From: a virus
Strand: one strand, 5' to 3'
Length of the DNA: 64,000 nt
Virus record (IMG/VR): IMGVR_UViG_3300022933_000279
Span: 86,811-150,810 of that record
This document shows positions 33,653-38,258 of the stretch, one piece after another. The notes under the pieces were generated by a model. That model ran no database searches, was not told the origin of the DNA, and worked only from the letters and a program-made list of their open reading frames with translations. Position 1 is the stretch's first letter, and the number at the start of each line of letters is the position of its first letter. Made by a program: the position numbers and the translations under genes.

Positions 33653-34003
33653 GTGGAATCGCTATTCAGTGCGGTAAATATAACAATGTTTGGGATTATA
33701 TTATTTTCCTCATTGTTCATATTTCTATTCAACTACAGACACGATAATAAAGACAAGTATCAGGGCAAGTATTCTCTAATTGTATTTGATCTTTTCATTA
33801 ACATGGGTATGTCAATTACTGGTTATATTTTAGTATGGCTAGTATTTGAAAACGTTCCACAATTAGCTCCATTTAACACTTATAGATTTCCAGTAGGATA
33901 TATGTTTGGTTTGACTTCTAATATAAGCATTCCAATTGTTTTGAAGTGGTTTACATCACAAATCACTAAAAAGTTAAATGAAGCAGTGAAGAAAGGAGTA
34001 TAA
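33653..34003 (+). CDS. Small integral membrane protein, 116 aa
   Basis: First gene of the gp16-gp17 island. It starts with GTG after a GGAGGCG ribosome site in the gp16 end. Hydrophobic segments fall at residues about 8-28 (NITMFGIILFSSLFIFLFNY), 43-67 (VFDLFINMGMSITGYILVWL) and, weaker, 82-100 (GYMFGLTSNISIPIVLKWF), separated by charged loops, and the tail is basic. No family recognised; a holin-like role or partnership with the cytochrome gene that starts on its last base are both possible. The one-base overlap points to coupled translation with the cytochrome. Confidence 0.65.
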   Translation: MESLFSAVNITMFGIILFSSLFIFLFNYRHDNKDKYQGKYSLIVFDLFINMGMSITGYILVWLVFENVPQLAPFNTYRFPVGYMFGLTSNISIPIVLKWFTSQITKKLNEAVKKGV

Positions 34004-34461
34004 TGGCGGTAAAACCTAAACAAACTACTGCTCCTGAAGAAGTTGCGGACGAACATGTCGAGGTAATGGAATTAGAACCAGTAAAAGCCATTGAAATAGA
34101 AACTAAAAATCTAGTAGCATCAAGTAGAATATTCATATACACTATAATAGGATTACTGGCATATTTAATTTTCTTAGTAATACCAGATATTTCCGAGAAG
34201 GTTACATGGGTGGAAAAGGATCTTAATTCTGTATTAGTACAATCAGAAAGATTCAAAAAATCCACCAGAGTATTTGCAAGAGATAATCAATGTGCATCTT
34301 GTCACTTAGAGCCTGATTATCTTCTTCATAATCTCTTAACGAAGTATCCTAGTTTTTCAGATATTAAATCATTTATGTCTGTAGGACATCAACGATATTA
34401 TACAATGACTCAACCTATATCAGATGCTGAACTCTTAGCAATTTATAGGACTTTACAATGA
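34003..34461 (+). CDS. Membrane-anchored monohaem cytochrome c
   Basis: Short cytosolic acidic N-terminus, one transmembrane helix at residues 43-61 (IFIYTIIGLLAYLIFLVIP), then a periplasmic domain. The domain has C97-A-S-C100-H101, the haem-attachment motif, and M135 in TMTQPISDAELLAIYRTLQ. The pattern Met-x-x-Pro-x-Ser-Asp-Ala-Glu near the end is the distal-ligand region of class I cytochromes c. The domain is short (about 70 residues). Haem attachment would need the host cytochrome c maturation machinery. The start overlaps the upstream membrane gene by one base and the end overlaps the binding-protein gene by four, so the three form a unit. An electron-transfer role in the infected cell is inferred. 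Confidence 0.75.
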   Translation: MAVKPKQTTAPEEVADEHVEVMELEPVKAIEIETKNLVASSRIFIYTIIGLLAYLIFLVIPDISEKVTWVEKDLNSVLVQSERFKKSTRVFARDNQCASCHLEPDYLLHNLLTKYPSFSDIKSFMSVGHQRYYTMTQPISDAELLAIYRTLQ

Positions 34462-35579
34462 TCATGGTTGGCAAACTTCTTGCATTTTTAATATTTTTAG
34501 TTATATCAGCATATCCCGGTAAAGCCAAAGATTCTCCTCATGATCGTACTGGCGCAGTAGTTAGCAAAATAAAACAAATAGAATACATTCCAACATATGG
34601 ATCAACGTTTAAAAGAGTAAAAGAACGTGGTCATATAATATGTGGTGCCAAAGATTCTATGCCAGGTTTTGGAGAAGAGCTTTGGGATGCAGAAACAGGC
34701 GTATTAAAATTTCAGGGCTTTGATATAGATATTTGTAGGGCAATTGCTACTGCAGTATTCGGAGATAAGGAAAAGGTTGAATATGAAATAATAGATGGTA
34801 AAACAAGATTTAGTTATTTAATAGATGGAACGGTTGATGTGGTATCGGCTACTGTTACATACACATATACTAGAAATGTTCTTAAAAAATTAGAGTTCAT
34901 GCCCACTACATATTATGATGGACAAGGATTTATTGTTCGAAAGACTCTTGGTGTATCATCTGCAAAGCAAATGGATGGTGCAAGAATATGTTATAGTTCA
35001 ACCGGAACTGCCGCAAAAAATACTAAGGATTTTTTTACAAAACATTTTCTTAATTATGTTCCAGTTGTGGTGCCAGTTGGAGAAAAATCTAAAGATTATT
35101 ACTTAGATCGTAAATGTGATATGTATGGCACAGATCGCTCCGGTTTAGCATCTAATAGAATTGGTTTTAAAAATCCGGAACAACATGTGATCCTTCCAGA
35201 AATTATTTCAAAAGAACCTCTTGGTCCAGTAGTAAAATATGGAGATCAACAATGGTCTGATATTGTAAGGTGGACAATATATGTTCTGTTCATTGCAGAA
35301 GAAATGGGATTAAATTCAAATAATATATCTAAATTTAAAAATAATATAGATCCAAGTATACAACGATTTATGGGCGAATTAAATGGTAATGATCATCCTC
35401 ATCTAGGGGCTAAATTAGGATTAGATGCTACATGGGCATATGAAGTTATTAAACAAGTTGGAAATTATAAAGAAATATATGAAAGAAATCTTGGTGAAAA
35501 TACACCTCTAGCTCTTAAACGTGGGCTAAATAAATTGTACACTGAAGGTGGTTTATTATATGCACCTCCATTAAAATAG
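34458..35579 (+). CDS. Periplasmic amino-acid-binding protein, AapJ/BztA-like
   Basis: Substrate-binding protein of a polar-amino-acid ABC importer, normally the product of a host gene (aapJ/bztA/yhdW family). A signal peptide (KLLAFLIFLVISAYPGKA) ends near residue 24. Diagnostic blocks are RGHIICGAKDSMPGFGEELW, QGFDIDICRAIATAVFGD, TTYYDGQGFIVRKTLGVSSA, HVILPEIISKEPLGPVVKYG, LGAKLGLDATWAYEVIKQVG and the C-terminus LNKLYTEGGLLYAPPLK. At 373 aa it is slightly longer than the usual 340. It is complete and undamaged. The permease and ATPase genes are absent from the window, so it would have to feed the host's transporter. It overlaps the cytochrome gene by four bases. Confidence 0.92.
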   Translation: MIMVGKLLAFLIFLVISAYPGKAKDSPHDRTGAVVSKIKQIEYIPTYGSTFKRVKERGHIICGAKDSMPGFGEELWDAETGVLKFQGFDIDICRAIATAVFGDKEKVEYEIIDGKTRFSYLIDGTVDVVSATVTYTYTRNVLKKLEFMPTTYYDGQGFIVRKTLGVSSAKQMDGARICYSSTGTAAKNTKDFFTKHFLNYVPVVVPVGEKSKDYYLDRKCDMYGTDRSGLASNRIGFKNPEQHVILPEIISKEPLGPVVKYGDQQWSDIVRWTIYVLFIAEEMGLNSNNISKFKNNIDPSIQRFMGELNGNDHPHLGAKLGLDATWAYEVIKQVGNYKEIYERNLGENTPLALKRGLNKLYTEGGLLYAPPLK

Positions 35580-35586
35580 GGAAAAA

Positions 35587-35904
35587 ATGCCAGATGAATT
35601 AGTCGATAAAATGTCAAATGAAATAGCCGCAGCAGAAGATAACTTACGAATATGGACAGAAAAATATGAAATGGAAGTTAGGCGTGAAGCAGTGACTGCA
35701 CAAGCGGATGCAAAGATGGCACTTGACGCGGCAAAAATAAGATTAGAGAAGTTGACAGCACAATATAAACCAGAATATTTAACTAGGTTTGAAGCACTTC
35801 CAGTTCCACCAAAGTTTAAGCCACCATTGCCTGTAATACCAGAAGAAATTAAAAAAGAAATTCTACCAAAGGTAACCAGAAGTAAGAAGAAAAAGAAAAA
35901 GTGA
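35587..35904 (+). CDS. Small coiled-coil protein with Pro-rich, Lys-rich tail, 105 aa
   Basis: Residues 1-60 form a heptad-patterned helix (SNEIAAAEDNLRIWTEKYEM, then ALDAAKIRLEKLTAQY). A Pro-rich stretch follows (LPVPPKFKPPLPVIPEEI) and the protein ends in a run of Lys. It has no signal peptide. It starts seven bases after the binding-protein stop, so it is in the same transcript. No family recognised. Confidence 0.6.
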   Translation: MPDELVDKMSNEIAAAEDNLRIWTEKYEMEVRREAVTAQADAKMALDAAKIRLEKLTAQYKPEYLTRFEALPVPPKFKPPLPVIPEEIKKEILPKVTRSKKKKKK

Positions 35905-35943
35905 GTTAATAAAATATAAACATTATAATTAAAAAAGGATGAT

Positions 35944-36168
35944 ATGTCTTGGATTGGGAATATAATTAAAAAAGTTTTTAAAAATGAAGGTTTAAAACAA
36001 CCAGAACCTGAACCTAAAAAAGCTGAGAAAAAAGTAAAAAAGAAAAATTTGAAAAGTATGACAAAAAAACAATTAGAGTCATACGGTAGAGAATTAGGTG
36101 TCGAATTGGATAGACGACATAATAAAGCTAAATTAATTGCACGACTGGAAGAGGCGGTTGCAAATTAA
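35944..36168 (+). CDS. Small HeH/SAP-like domain protein, 74 aa
   Basis: Lys-rich N-terminal linker, then a compact helix-extension-helix domain at residues 38-72: LKSMTKKQLESYGRELGVEL followed by DRRHNKAKLIARLEEAV. The pattern of Lys-x-x-Leu...Gly-Val...Lys...Leu-Ile matches HeH/LEM or SAP-type folds, often nucleic-acid-binding. A TATAAACA box at 35915, one base off the late consensus, precedes it. Role unknown. Confidence 0.6.
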   Translation: MSWIGNIIKKVFKNEGLKQPEPEPKKAEKKVKKKNLKSMTKKQLESYGRELGVELDRRHNKAKLIARLEEAVAN

Positions 36169-36442
36169 TAATACAATAAAAGAGTATTGGCGCGATTGGG
36201 CTGCACTCGTTTATTTGTTTATCTGCTTAGTAGATTTTTTTGTAGCGCCTTTGATATGGAACTTAATGATGGCGGAATATTGTGACACACATGATTGTAT
36301 AAAAGAAGGTGTAACACGATGGATTCCTTTGACACTTGAAAGTGGCGCCATGTTTCATCTTTCATTCGGAGCAATCCTTGGTGCAACGTCATTTAATAAA
36401 CATAAAGAGATTCACGCTAGCACTAAGTCTACTGATACTTAG
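36158..36442 (+). CDS. Holin-like small membrane protein, 94 aa
   Basis: Two hydrophobic segments: WAALVYLFICLVDFFVAPLI (about 14-33) and LTLESGAMFHLSFGAILGAT (about 62-81), with a charged hydrophilic tail. The pattern of a Trp-Asp...APLIW helix and a second FHLSFGAILG helix resembles small holins of marine podoviruses and myoviruses. There is no in-frame ATG upstream of the first helix; TTG at 36158 is chosen because GGAAGAGG lies at 36147-36154. The frame is open further upstream, to another TTG at 36137. It overlaps the lipase gene by about 60 bases. A pore-forming lysis role is inferred. Confidence 0.55.
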   Translation: MQINNTIKEYWRDWAALVYLFICLVDFFVAPLIWNLMMAEYCDTHDCIKEGVTRWIPLTLESGAMFHLSFGAILGATSFNKHKEIHASTKSTDT

Positions 36443-37124
36443 TGGATGTGCTGAAAATAAAACTGATTCAAATAATGATCTTGATAGTGGAGATAAATCA
36501 AATCTACCAGTCACAATATCATCTCTGATTGAACACGCAGAGTATTGTAAAGTAATTTACGATAGTGGTGGTAATCAAAAAGATGAAGTTGCATTTGATG
36601 TAAAACAAGATAGTGGAATAACAATAATTATTATTAGGGGCACTGCCAATGCAGAAAATGTCCAATCTGATATTGATGTAAGATTAGTAGATGATGCAGT
36701 CACAGGAATCAAACTTCATAAAGGATTCAGAGATGCGTCTTTAGGTGTTATGGAGATTATTGATAGAGATCATACAGTTGAACATACTGTACATATTACA
36801 GGTCACAGTTTAGGTGGAGCTATTTCACAAATAATAGGAATGTGGCTTCATAAAAGAGGTCACAATGTTCAAATCTATTCTTACGGATCACCAAAAGTTA
36901 CTTATCAAATTATGTCTGGAGGACAGCCCACTCATTGGCGTGTGGTTCGTCTTAGCGATCCTATCCCTTTTACTCCTCCCTGGCCTTATGCTCATACCGG
37001 TCTTTTTATAGATAGTCAGACTTTAGATTGGGGTCCAGATAATGATAATGGATTAATTTCTCAAACAGATGGCTTGACTCACGCCATAGCAAAATATGTG
37101 GAAACATTGAAAGCCGCTCAATGA
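36381..37124 (+). CDS. Lipoprotein class-3 lipase
   Basis: Alpha/beta-hydrolase of the lipase class 3 family, predicted to be tethered to a membrane. The lipoprotein signal (INIKRFTLALSLLILSGC) puts the lipidated Cys at residue 23. GTG at 36381, with GGAG nine bases upstream, gives a normal signal length; a longer TTG start at 36336 does not. The nucleophile elbow is HITGHSLGGA with S143; D193 in RLSDPIPFTPP and H234 in GLTHAIAKY complete a plausible triad. IIIIRGTAN supplies the oxyanion strand. It is complete. It overlaps the holin-like gene and is followed at once (four-base overlap) by the Pycsar-like gene. Membrane-lipid attack during lysis is inferred. Confidence 0.8.
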   Translation: MQRHLINIKRFTLALSLLILSGCAENKTDSNNDLDSGDKSNLPVTISSLIEHAEYCKVIYDSGGNQKDEVAFDVKQDSGITIIIIRGTANAENVQSDIDVRLVDDAVTGIKLHKGFRDASLGVMEIIDRDHTVEHTVHITGHSLGGAISQIIGMWLHKRGHNVQIYSYGSPKVTYQIMSGGQPTHWRVVRLSDPIPFTPPWPYAHTGLFIDSQTLDWGPDNDNGLISQTDGLTHAIAKYVETLKAAQ

Positions 37125-37843
37125 AGGGTGAAGAAAGACCTTACTTAAAAAAATATGGAATAGAAGAAAAGGTTAACCCATTTGAAAACATTCCAGAAGA
37201 TAGAACAGCCGTAGATAACATTTTAAGAGTGAATCACGGTAATCAAATGAGATTAAACTTGATGGCTGATGCTAAAGCTAATATTATGATTACTGTTTCT
37301 TCTATTGTTTTTTCAGTCACTATAGCTAATTTAGATAATGAAATAATGAAATGGCCTTTAATAACATTTGCAGTTGGAAACTTTTTTACATTATTATTTG
37401 CCATATTTGCAATTATTCCAAAAACAGCTTATCCTAAGCTACCACATTCCAATGAAATTGATAGAAAATCGCCTTGGTTTAATCCTTTATTTTTCGGACA
37501 TTTTGCACATATTGATATTGATGAATATAAAAAAGATTACGCAGAAAAATTGTTGACTGATGATAAAATATATGATACTATGGTAGGAGATATATATGGC
37601 CAAGGAAAAGTACTTGCACTTAGTAAATATAAGTATCTCAAATGGTCATATAATTGTTTTCTTGGAGGGATGGCATCAGCAATGGCAGTTTTTGCATTAC
37701 AAGGGGCTGCAGCAGATTTTATATTAGAGTATGGATTATGGTTAAAAGATATTATATTTGAGGAAATATCATTTACTTTTGATGGACTGAGAGAAGTAGC
37801 CTGTCAAATAAGTACTCCATGTCGACAGAAATATAACTTATAA
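37121..37843 (+). CDS. Pycsar-effector-like transmembrane protein, 240 aa
   Basis: Matches the Pycsar effector family (PF18967, formerly DUF5706) over most of its length. VDNILRVNHGNQMRLNLMAD and AKANIMITVSSIVFSVTIAN give the conserved N38...D50-x-K-A-N signature, two hydrophobic helices follow (about 55-73 and 79-100), then FNPLFFGHFAHIDIDEYKKD, then DTMVGDIYGQGKVLALSKYK and a third helix near 175-197. In bacterial defence these proteins are membrane effectors opened by cyclic CMP or UMP made by a partner cyclase. No cyclase is visible in the window. Start overlaps the lipase by four bases. A lysis, superinfection-exclusion or decoy role are alternatives. Confidence 0.72.
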   Translation: MKGEERPYLKKYGIEEKVNPFENIPEDRTAVDNILRVNHGNQMRLNLMADAKANIMITVSSIVFSVTIANLDNEIMKWPLITFAVGNFFTLLFAIFAIIPKTAYPKLPHSNEIDRKSPWFNPLFFGHFAHIDIDEYKKDYAEKLLTDDKIYDTMVGDIYGQGKVLALSKYKYLKWSYNCFLGGMASAMAVFALQGAAADFILEYGLWLKDIIFEEISFTFDGLREVACQISTPCRQKYNL

Positions 37844-37846
37844 ATA
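37839..37846 (+). promoter_or_regulatory. Late promoter TATAAATA
   Basis: Exact T4 late-promoter box, 31 bases before the ATG of the small membrane protein gene at 37878. It probably gives late expression of the second half of the island. Confidence 0.65.
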
Positions 37847-37877: not shown

Positions 37878-38258
37878 ATGAGTATATTGAATAGAAGTAA
37901 ACGTCAAGGTGACGATAAAATAAATACTGTTAAGGAATTGATTATTACATCAGAAGATAAATTATGGGAAAGTGATCCAATGAAAGCATTGACATTTGAA
38001 GGTACGGAACGTCGCAAAAAATTGAACTGGTGGACAAGAACATTTTTATCCATTGTTATAGTTCTTACTTTTTTATTCTTAGTGTGGTTACTCTTTATGG
38101 AGGACCTGCCTGATGCATCTCGCGATTTAATAAATATAATGACCGGGGCGTATGTGGCGGTACTCGCCAAAGCAACGGACTACTGGTTCAAAGATAAAGA
38201 TGATCCAGAACACAAAGAAACAGAACGAGAATTAGCAAAAGATGCTAGCGTAAGCTAA
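37878..38258 (+). CDS. Small membrane protein, holin-like topology, 126 aa
   Basis: Charged N-terminal 50 residues, a strong hydrophobic helix at about 57-75 (FLSIVIVLTFLFLVWLLFM), a short loop, then a second weaker segment LINIMTGAYVAVLAKATDYW ending in a charged tail (FKDKDDPEHKETERELAKD). This two-helix plan with a charged C-terminus is common in holins and holin-like phage proteins. It has an exact late promoter upstream. Family not recognised; a second lysis membrane protein or a structural anchor are both possible. Confidence 0.55.
   Translation: MSILNRSKRQGDDKINTVKELIITSEDKLWESDPMKALTFEGTERRKKLNWWTRTFLSIVIVLTFLFLVWLLFMEDLPDASRDLINIMTGAYVAVLAKATDYWFKDKDDPEHKETERELAKDASVS

Follow-up and report, generated by a model that had tools for sequence, protein, structure and literature searches.

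PYC, a PF18967 (PycTM)-like protein carried by a phage, is encoded by the fourth and final gene of a cassette conserved in T4-like phages and ordered TM116, heme protein, SBP3, PYC. Its gene (37121..37843, plus strand; P0001) lies in the window, by which we mean the whole stretch of DNA analyzed here, the final 64 kb of a virus record of 150,810 bases, and encodes a predicted inner-membrane protein of 240 amino acids. What is new here is that a known domain, PF18967, stands in a new and nearly fixed viral setting. From the sequences, we tentatively favor, at somewhat less than even confidence, a reading of PYC and its partners as an envelope cassette that would adjust the inner membrane of the infected cell rather than as a cell-suicide effector.

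The original prediction had assigned PYC to the Pycsar effector family, and the profile search sustains the family match, PF18967 (PycTM; Pfam name 'Pycsar effector protein') scoring 71.7 bits (E 7.7e-20) against a Pfam gathering score of 27.2 and being recovered at 73 bits in a six-frame search of the whole record. The open reading frame is intact, with a start ATG that overlaps the stop of the lipase gene (36336..37124), and together with the profile match this makes the observation right and beyond chance. PADLOC adds matches to three PycTM models (53.5, 47 and 26.4 bits) and to five CBASS '2TM' effector models (20.8-32.8 bits). The three blocks pointed out in the original prediction are all present, D-x-K-A-N as DAKAN at residues 50-54, LFFGHF at 123-128, and DIYGQGKVLA at 157-166. 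Hydropathy gives three TM segments (53-71, 81-99, and 184-202), of which the second and third are separated by a loop of 84 residues, and hydropathy, the alignment, and positions common with bacterial relatives together place the TM helices on the flanks of a conserved soluble block. The C-terminal tail, in which 13 of 17 alignment rows show a Cys pair (by eye), is likely periplasmic provided that the loop is cytosolic. The predicted structure is helical and of moderate quality (pLDDT 69.5). A Foldseek search of this model against PDB gave 376 matches at E <10 and none at E <0.001; the best 50 of the 376, mostly BAR domains and rhodopsins, were taken as meaningless. Sequence searches of solved structures with PYC or with the heme protein gave no match at E 10, a PHROG search with PYC gave none below E 0.16 and thus no holin family, and NCBIfam models left PYC, TM116, and the heme protein unnamed, PYC matching none of them.

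The four-gene cassette and its phage setting

The virus was called T4-like because of the gene order and the matches of its terminase, the best phage matches of which (best 20 of 2647) are T4-like cyanophages and Methylophilales phages at 58.1-59.5%; from this T4-like character, a marine origin is inferred. The hosts of this phage group would be bacteria, probably not cyanobacteria. With gene names taken from position, PYC presumably has neck or tail-completion genes on one side and the gene for the large terminase on the other. Relatives of PYC were collected from IMG/VR, where they are common; 115 were confirmed by a first profile (the best 80 of these 115 being used) and a motif scan added more, for a total of at least 179 loci including the window and two MAG contigs. 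When identical DNA was counted once, the PYC loci came down from 179 to 116 and the heme-gene loci from 81 to 67 (including the window).

The order TM116, heme gene, SBP3, PYC holds in most loci mapped. For 85 of the 116 distinct PYC copies, the upstream sequence extends to 2 kb or more; in these, SBP3 was found in 82, the heme gene in 81, and TM116 in 80, with SBP3 no more than 300 bp from PYC in 73 loci. Searching in the opposite direction, from the heme gene outward over the best 80 of 227 relatives (the nearest third), recovered TM116 in 66/66, SBP3 in 56/56, and PYC in 43/45 testable loci, and both PYC misses lie at contig ends, one contig (L224) stopping inside a known insert and the other (L228) 576 bases after SBP3. 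Nine records picked by eye showed no heme gene near PYC in the stretch fetched; six of them do carry one, about 1-6 kb from PYC by coordinates, and it is absent from the other three, one of which is 99 kb long. The genes are packed closely, with median gaps of 7, -4, and 10 bp. Terminase comes immediately after PYC in many loci, and the cassette is also found beside tail genes. In one locus (L126, 1582-2249), PYC is split over two overlapping ORFs; these correspond to different segments of a single gene, not to a tandem duplication.

Searches of 50,697 phage records by tblastn with PYC, the heme protein, and TM116 gave no match (E limits 0.01, 0.01, and 0.1, respectively), SBP3 gave only distant matches in six records at <28% identity, and stand-alone and cyclase-linked bacterial PF18967 proteins used as queries against phage records gave none. 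Because the cassette proteins are nearly absent from these 50,697 records, work on isolates probably would not have met the cassette. No publication on it was found in open-licence PMC full text, as judged by titles and the openings of abstracts. The genome collection yielded only two matches, both with the cassette, on contigs of a Chloroflexi MAG (L092) and a Flavobacteriales MAG (L093, where the contig end cuts PYC), which are probably phage contigs binned with bacteria; the plasmid search yielded one, from Persicobacter, at 31%. All search patterns were derived from this one viral clade, and more distant viral PycTM proteins may therefore exist elsewhere without the cassette.

The first gene of the cassette, TM116 (33653..34003, plus strand), encodes a membrane protein of 116 amino acids with two TM segments called and a third possible. 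It is small and hydrophobic with a basic C-terminus (hydropathy and a 17-row alignment), and has no convincing family match; the 10 weak PHROG matches obtained with its 17 members include no holin. A lambda-S-type holin was considered and rejected, as hhalign against lambda S gave a probability of 0.7% over 7 columns, and TM116 is therefore holin-like only in size and layout. The second gene (cytc; 34003..34461, plus strand) encodes a protein of 152 amino acids that is anchored by a single TM segment and contains CASCH; by sequence, it is probably a small c-type heme domain on the periplasmic side. Cys-97, Cys-100, His-101, Met-125, and His-129 are invariant in 19 rows, and Pfam SoxA-TsdA_cyt-c weakly matches 18 of the 19 members (best E 3.9e-5), the protein of the window scoring 15.5 bits, below the cut-off of 27. 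It is because of the CxxCH motif and this weak Pfam match that we infer heme binding; the structural model is poor (pLDDT 65.7, pTM 0.28). The third gene, SBP3 (34458..35579, plus strand), encodes an AapJ-like periplasmic amino-acid-binding protein (PF00497, 44.1 bits), of which residues 48-372 of 373 align with PDB 4z9n over 325 residues (E 1.4e-78, 267.8 bits). Its conservation was computed over 96 sequences, and residues 1-19 are hydrophobic and signal-like by hydropathy.

Purifying selection acts on each of the four genes, with median dN/dS values of 0.085 for TM116, 0.158 for the heme protein, 0.157 for SBP3, and 0.174 for PYC (pairwise, for pairs with dS 0.1-1). Protein distances of PYC correlate with those of SBP3 (r 0.73), the heme protein (0.68), and TM116 (0.60), against 0.25 for gp15 and 0.32 for gp16; the correlation with TerL (r 0.53, 28 loci) falls between the values for the cassette and those for gp15/gp16. 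For the other pairs, SBP3 and the heme protein reach 0.69, whereas the heme protein and TM116 reach 0.48, no higher than TM116 and gp15 (0.48). These correlations are in keeping, though not perfectly, with transfer of the cassette between phages as a unit.

Both neighbors named in the original prediction, a lipase gene and a holin-like gene, are present, but the conserved neighbors are others. In the window, SBP3 and PYC are separated by two small ORFs of 105 and 74 amino acids (35587..36168, plus strand), which belong to the insert found at this place in window-type phages, and by a TM101-lipase pair. TM101 (36137..36442, plus strand) is a small protein, hydrophobic by hydropathy, that we label holin-like. 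Its companion, the Lipase_3 protein (36336..37124, plus strand; PF01764, 56.5 bits), has a hydrophobic N-terminus and an LSGC sequence that we take to be a lipobox-like motif. TM101 and this lipoprotein-like lipase move as a unit around the cassette (window 36137-37124; L036, L038, L064, L108, L132, and others), and the two may form a lysis pair that would turn the lipase on the outer membrane. The pair stands 5' of PYC in the window and 3' of it in many relatives (39 maps); since so many maps place it after PYC, neither the lipase nor the holin-like gene is a constant partner, and both are neighbors by location. HOL126 (37878..38258, plus strand), presumably the 'holin-like' gene of the original prediction, is a single-TM protein and a variable neighbor that matches phrog_9990 (3e-8) and phrog_1544 (3.2e-5), both of function unknown, and a holin family (phrog_1356) only at E 0.072. 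Window-type phages also encode a protein of 91 amino acids that is weakly holin/hemolysin-like. An isolated capture beside a lipase and a holin is thus rejected, PYC being the fourth gene of a conserved cassette with TM116, the heme gene, and SBP3 as its constant neighbors.

Further features of the surroundings were observed. The octamer TATAAATA, which we take to be T4-type late-promoter-like, covers the stop codon of PYC 5' of the next gene (37839..37846, plus strand). The window has 11 such sites, all on the plus strand, a total not above the chance mean of 12.7. Several stand just ahead of structural genes, presumably the placement of T4-type late promoters. The octamer was found upstream of TM116 in 7/89 cases, of the other three cassette genes in 0/77, 0/96, and 0/104, and of gp18 in 18/21. 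Directly 3' of PYC, nine distinct sequences encode a hydrophobic, probably multi-TM protein of about 200 amino acids (e.g. L066 1140-1748), which may be a fifth member of the cassette in one lineage. Outside the window, at about 29-66 kb of the record, a long run of genes has N-termini resembling by eye radical SAM enzymes, and two N-termini in the same region resemble flavin-dependent halogenases; the motifs behind both labels are our assumption.

Place of viral PYC within the PF18967 family

The bacterial sample represents one phylum and consists of 148 Bacteroidota genomes, 55 of which have PF18967 above the cut-off; 49 distinct neighborhoods out of 50 were collected (L203 and L294 being the same place), 29 of them with 1.5-kb flanks only, and L290, read in a wrong frame, was left out of the counts. 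Nine PF18967 proteins in this sample are short, and seven of these stand beside a class III cyclase or a CD-NTase-type gene: the cyclase accompanies L278, L279 (with one ORF between), L280, L283, L285, and, below the Pfam cut-off, L287, and the CD-NTase-type gene adjoins L284. No cyclase or CD-NTase was recognized near L282 and L286. The other branch comprises 40 ORFs, 39 of them distinct. Among its 25 long ORFs, 23 have an N-terminal match to an HD profile (built from 12 ORFs of this branch, with Pfam HD checked on one fused protein, L190), and the other two are fused to a class III cyclase; 14 more are short stand-alone PF18967 proteins. Single-chain cyclase-PycTM proteins thus occur in two Bacteroidota genomes, HD/cyclase fusions being found among L190, L217, and L295. 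A separate cyclase gene lies beside L281 and L293 of this branch.

A profile built from the viral proteins scores 61-108 bits on the HD-fused, cyclase-fused, or stand-alone branch and finds none of the seven cyclase- or CD-NTase-linked short proteins at E 0.01; it weakly matches L286, which is short and without a cyclase (E 0.0058). Viral PYC has 74 conserved positions, 24 of which are also found at 80% or more in the nearer branch, and of those 24, only Lys-52, Pro-100, Phe-125, and Lys-169 are present in all seven linked proteins. The D-x-K-A-N signature had been read as a mark of Pycsar effectors, and this is not supported: Asp-50 occurs in 1/7 of the linked short proteins versus 100% of the 40 other-branch ORFs and Asn-54 in 0/7 versus 90%, and these linked proteins are the very seven that the viral profile misses. 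Viral proteins have GHF in place of GNF, the asparagine of which is found in 93% of the 40 ORFs of the nearer branch. His-127 is present in 69 of 70 distinct PYC copies, the 70th being a fragment without this region, a count made only on copies collected with other motifs, since loci picked by NPLFFGHF cannot show its conservation. In the tree, a single clade contains the 17 viral proteins (100/100), and a branch supported at 98/98 sets the nine short proteins apart from the viral and other proteins, but branches are long, and the AU test does not reject joining the viral with the short proteins (p 0.458). In similarity, the HD-fused, cyclase-fused, or stand-alone Bacteroidota proteins are the nearest to PYC among those compared. 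Because this nearer branch is fused to nucleotide enzymes, nucleotide sensing by PYC remains plausible, and the two cyclase-PF18967 fusions speak against the branch being unrelated to cyclic nucleotides.

That PYC is carried by a phage without a cyclase, as originally suggested, agrees with the absence of PF00211 from the 150.8-kb record. Searches for a cyclase or an Apyc1-type nuclease detected no PF00211 class III cyclase, SMODS CD-NTase, HD, or Lactamase_B_2 there, the latter being the MBL family used to look for Apyc1-like nucleases. PF00211 was likewise found in 0/20 virus records (this record and 19 related ones, most of them short and none known to be complete) and HD in 0/7 (this record and six related ones). 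A class III cyclase does occur in the Chloroflexi MAG to which L092 belongs, although on a different contig.

Possible roles of the cassette

The lack of a trigger enzyme in the records searched and the near-constant presence of three envelope neighbors make a viral envelope toolkit probable and not a stray defense weapon, and an envelope set is the most economical reading since two membrane proteins, a periplasmic binding protein, and a periplasmic heme protein are encoded together. In the reading that we tentatively favor, the three TM helices of PYC would carry a cytosolic domain, and since PYC keeps core residues of a branch often fused to HD phosphohydrolases and sometimes to a class III cyclase, this domain may have kept a response to a nucleotide of the host. 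SBP3 would serve amino-acid uptake through a host permease, the heme protein would carry electron flow, and TM116 and PYC would give controlled permeability, and the cassette would thereby affect uptake, respiration, or lysis timing of the infected cell. A more specific form, which we regard as rather doubtful, is an envelope signaling and energy module in which a PycTM-type domain, cut loose from its cyclase, would be wired to SBP3 and the heme protein, so that the virus could sense how the dying cell stands in nutrients, redox, or nucleotides and would set membrane permeability or the time of lysis to match; such a module would be of a kind not described before.

The strongest rival, although somewhat unlikely, is a module for lysis or its timing, in which TM116 and PYC would be holin-like or permeabilizing late in infection and SBP3 and the heme protein would act as sensors or brakes beside the TM101-lipase pair. 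This would be in agreement with the frequent position of the cassette next to that pair (39 maps) and also next to terminase and tail genes, with the small size, hydrophobicity, and basic C-terminus of TM116, and with the description of PycTM effectors as forming a membrane-spanning pore (PMC11224242). On the other hand, TM116 matches neither a holin PHROG (17 members) nor lambda S, terminase follows directly after PYC in many loci, and window-type phages have other candidates in TM101, HOL126, and the weakly holin/hemolysin-like 91-aa protein; moreover, lysis requires neither an amino-acid-binding protein nor a cytochrome. These two proteins are, conversely, the core of a purely metabolic explanation, in which SBP3 and the heme protein would feed and energize the cell and TM116 and PYC would scaffold or stabilize them, nucleotide sensing having been lost. 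The good preservation of the AapJ-like protein, the invariant candidate heme ligands, and the Cys pair in the likely periplasmic tail of PYC (13/17 rows) would all suit such a cassette, but many of the positions common to PYC and its bacterial relatives fall in the presumed cytosolic block, where a scaffold would not need them, and we consider this explanation improbable.

Retention of these cytosolic family residues together with the fixed change from GNF to GHF speaks for a counter-defense role, in which PYC, as a decoy, would sequester cyclic nucleotides of the host or trap its PycTM-family effectors in inactive hetero-oligomers. The virus records searched contain no cyclase, and phage anti-Pycsar proteins such as Apyc1 do exist (PMC9117128). 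So close a tie with three envelope genes is not what one expects of a free decoy, the cyclase-linked effectors go undetected by the viral profile, and the pairwise dN/dS of PYC is low (median 0.174); we consider the decoy quite unlikely. The least probable of these explanations, to which we give very little weight, is a weapon against co-infecting phages or the host, i.e. an effector fired by host-made nucleotides or by the cyclase of a second phage: the family resemblance of PYC to PycTM is in its favor, but the records searched hold no trigger enzyme, PYC is conserved and not a sporadic accessory, and its cassette partners do not fit. All three roles put forward in the original prediction (reuse for lysis, a dominant-negative decoy, a weapon against co-infecting phages) are retained here as rivals.

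From a broader point of view, a domain labeled as an antiphage suicide effector is here a conserved gene of a large phage group, tied to three envelope genes, and the case of PYC warns against calling every PF18967 protein a Pycsar effector. The four-gene set also provides a testable handle on how these viruses may manage the host membrane.

Comparison with known systems

PycTM effectors of Pycsar disrupt membranes (PMC11224242), and like them PYC matches PF18967 and the PADLOC PycTM models and has TM helices around a soluble block. Unlike them, it occurs in viral records without a cyclase, and its conserved core and gene partners differ; its best PADLOC PycTM score is 53.5 bits versus 79-115 for the seven linked proteins and 68-73 for three proteins of the other branch. 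PYC shares 24 conserved positions with the HD-fused, cyclase-fused, and stand-alone Bacteroidota PF18967 proteins, on which the viral profile scores as given above, whereas it differs from them in lacking an HD or cyclase domain, in having GHF for GNF and an extra C-terminal tail, and in being part of a phage cassette. A separate case is Apyc1, an MBL-fold cNMP phosphodiesterase and one of the phage nucleases that destroy Pycsar signals, as described in PMC9117128, in the main text of which the word 'PycTM' does not occur. Unlike Apyc1, PYC has no match to an MBL family in Pfam, and its model is helical.

Regarding its partners, SBP3 is like AapJ in that it aligns over 325 residues with a bacterial amino-acid-binding homolog (PDB 4z9n), and unlike AapJ in that it is phage-borne, with no permease gene among the recognized neighbors; we use the name AapJ for this likeness on the assumption that it denotes the substrate-binding protein of the general L-amino-acid permease. 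Cyanophages carry host-physiology genes such as pstS, petE, and PTOX. The phages described here resemble them as T4-like phages with a periplasmic binding protein or electron carriers, but, unlike the cyanophage gene sets, this cassette is a nearly fixed unit of four genes that includes a PycTM-like protein.
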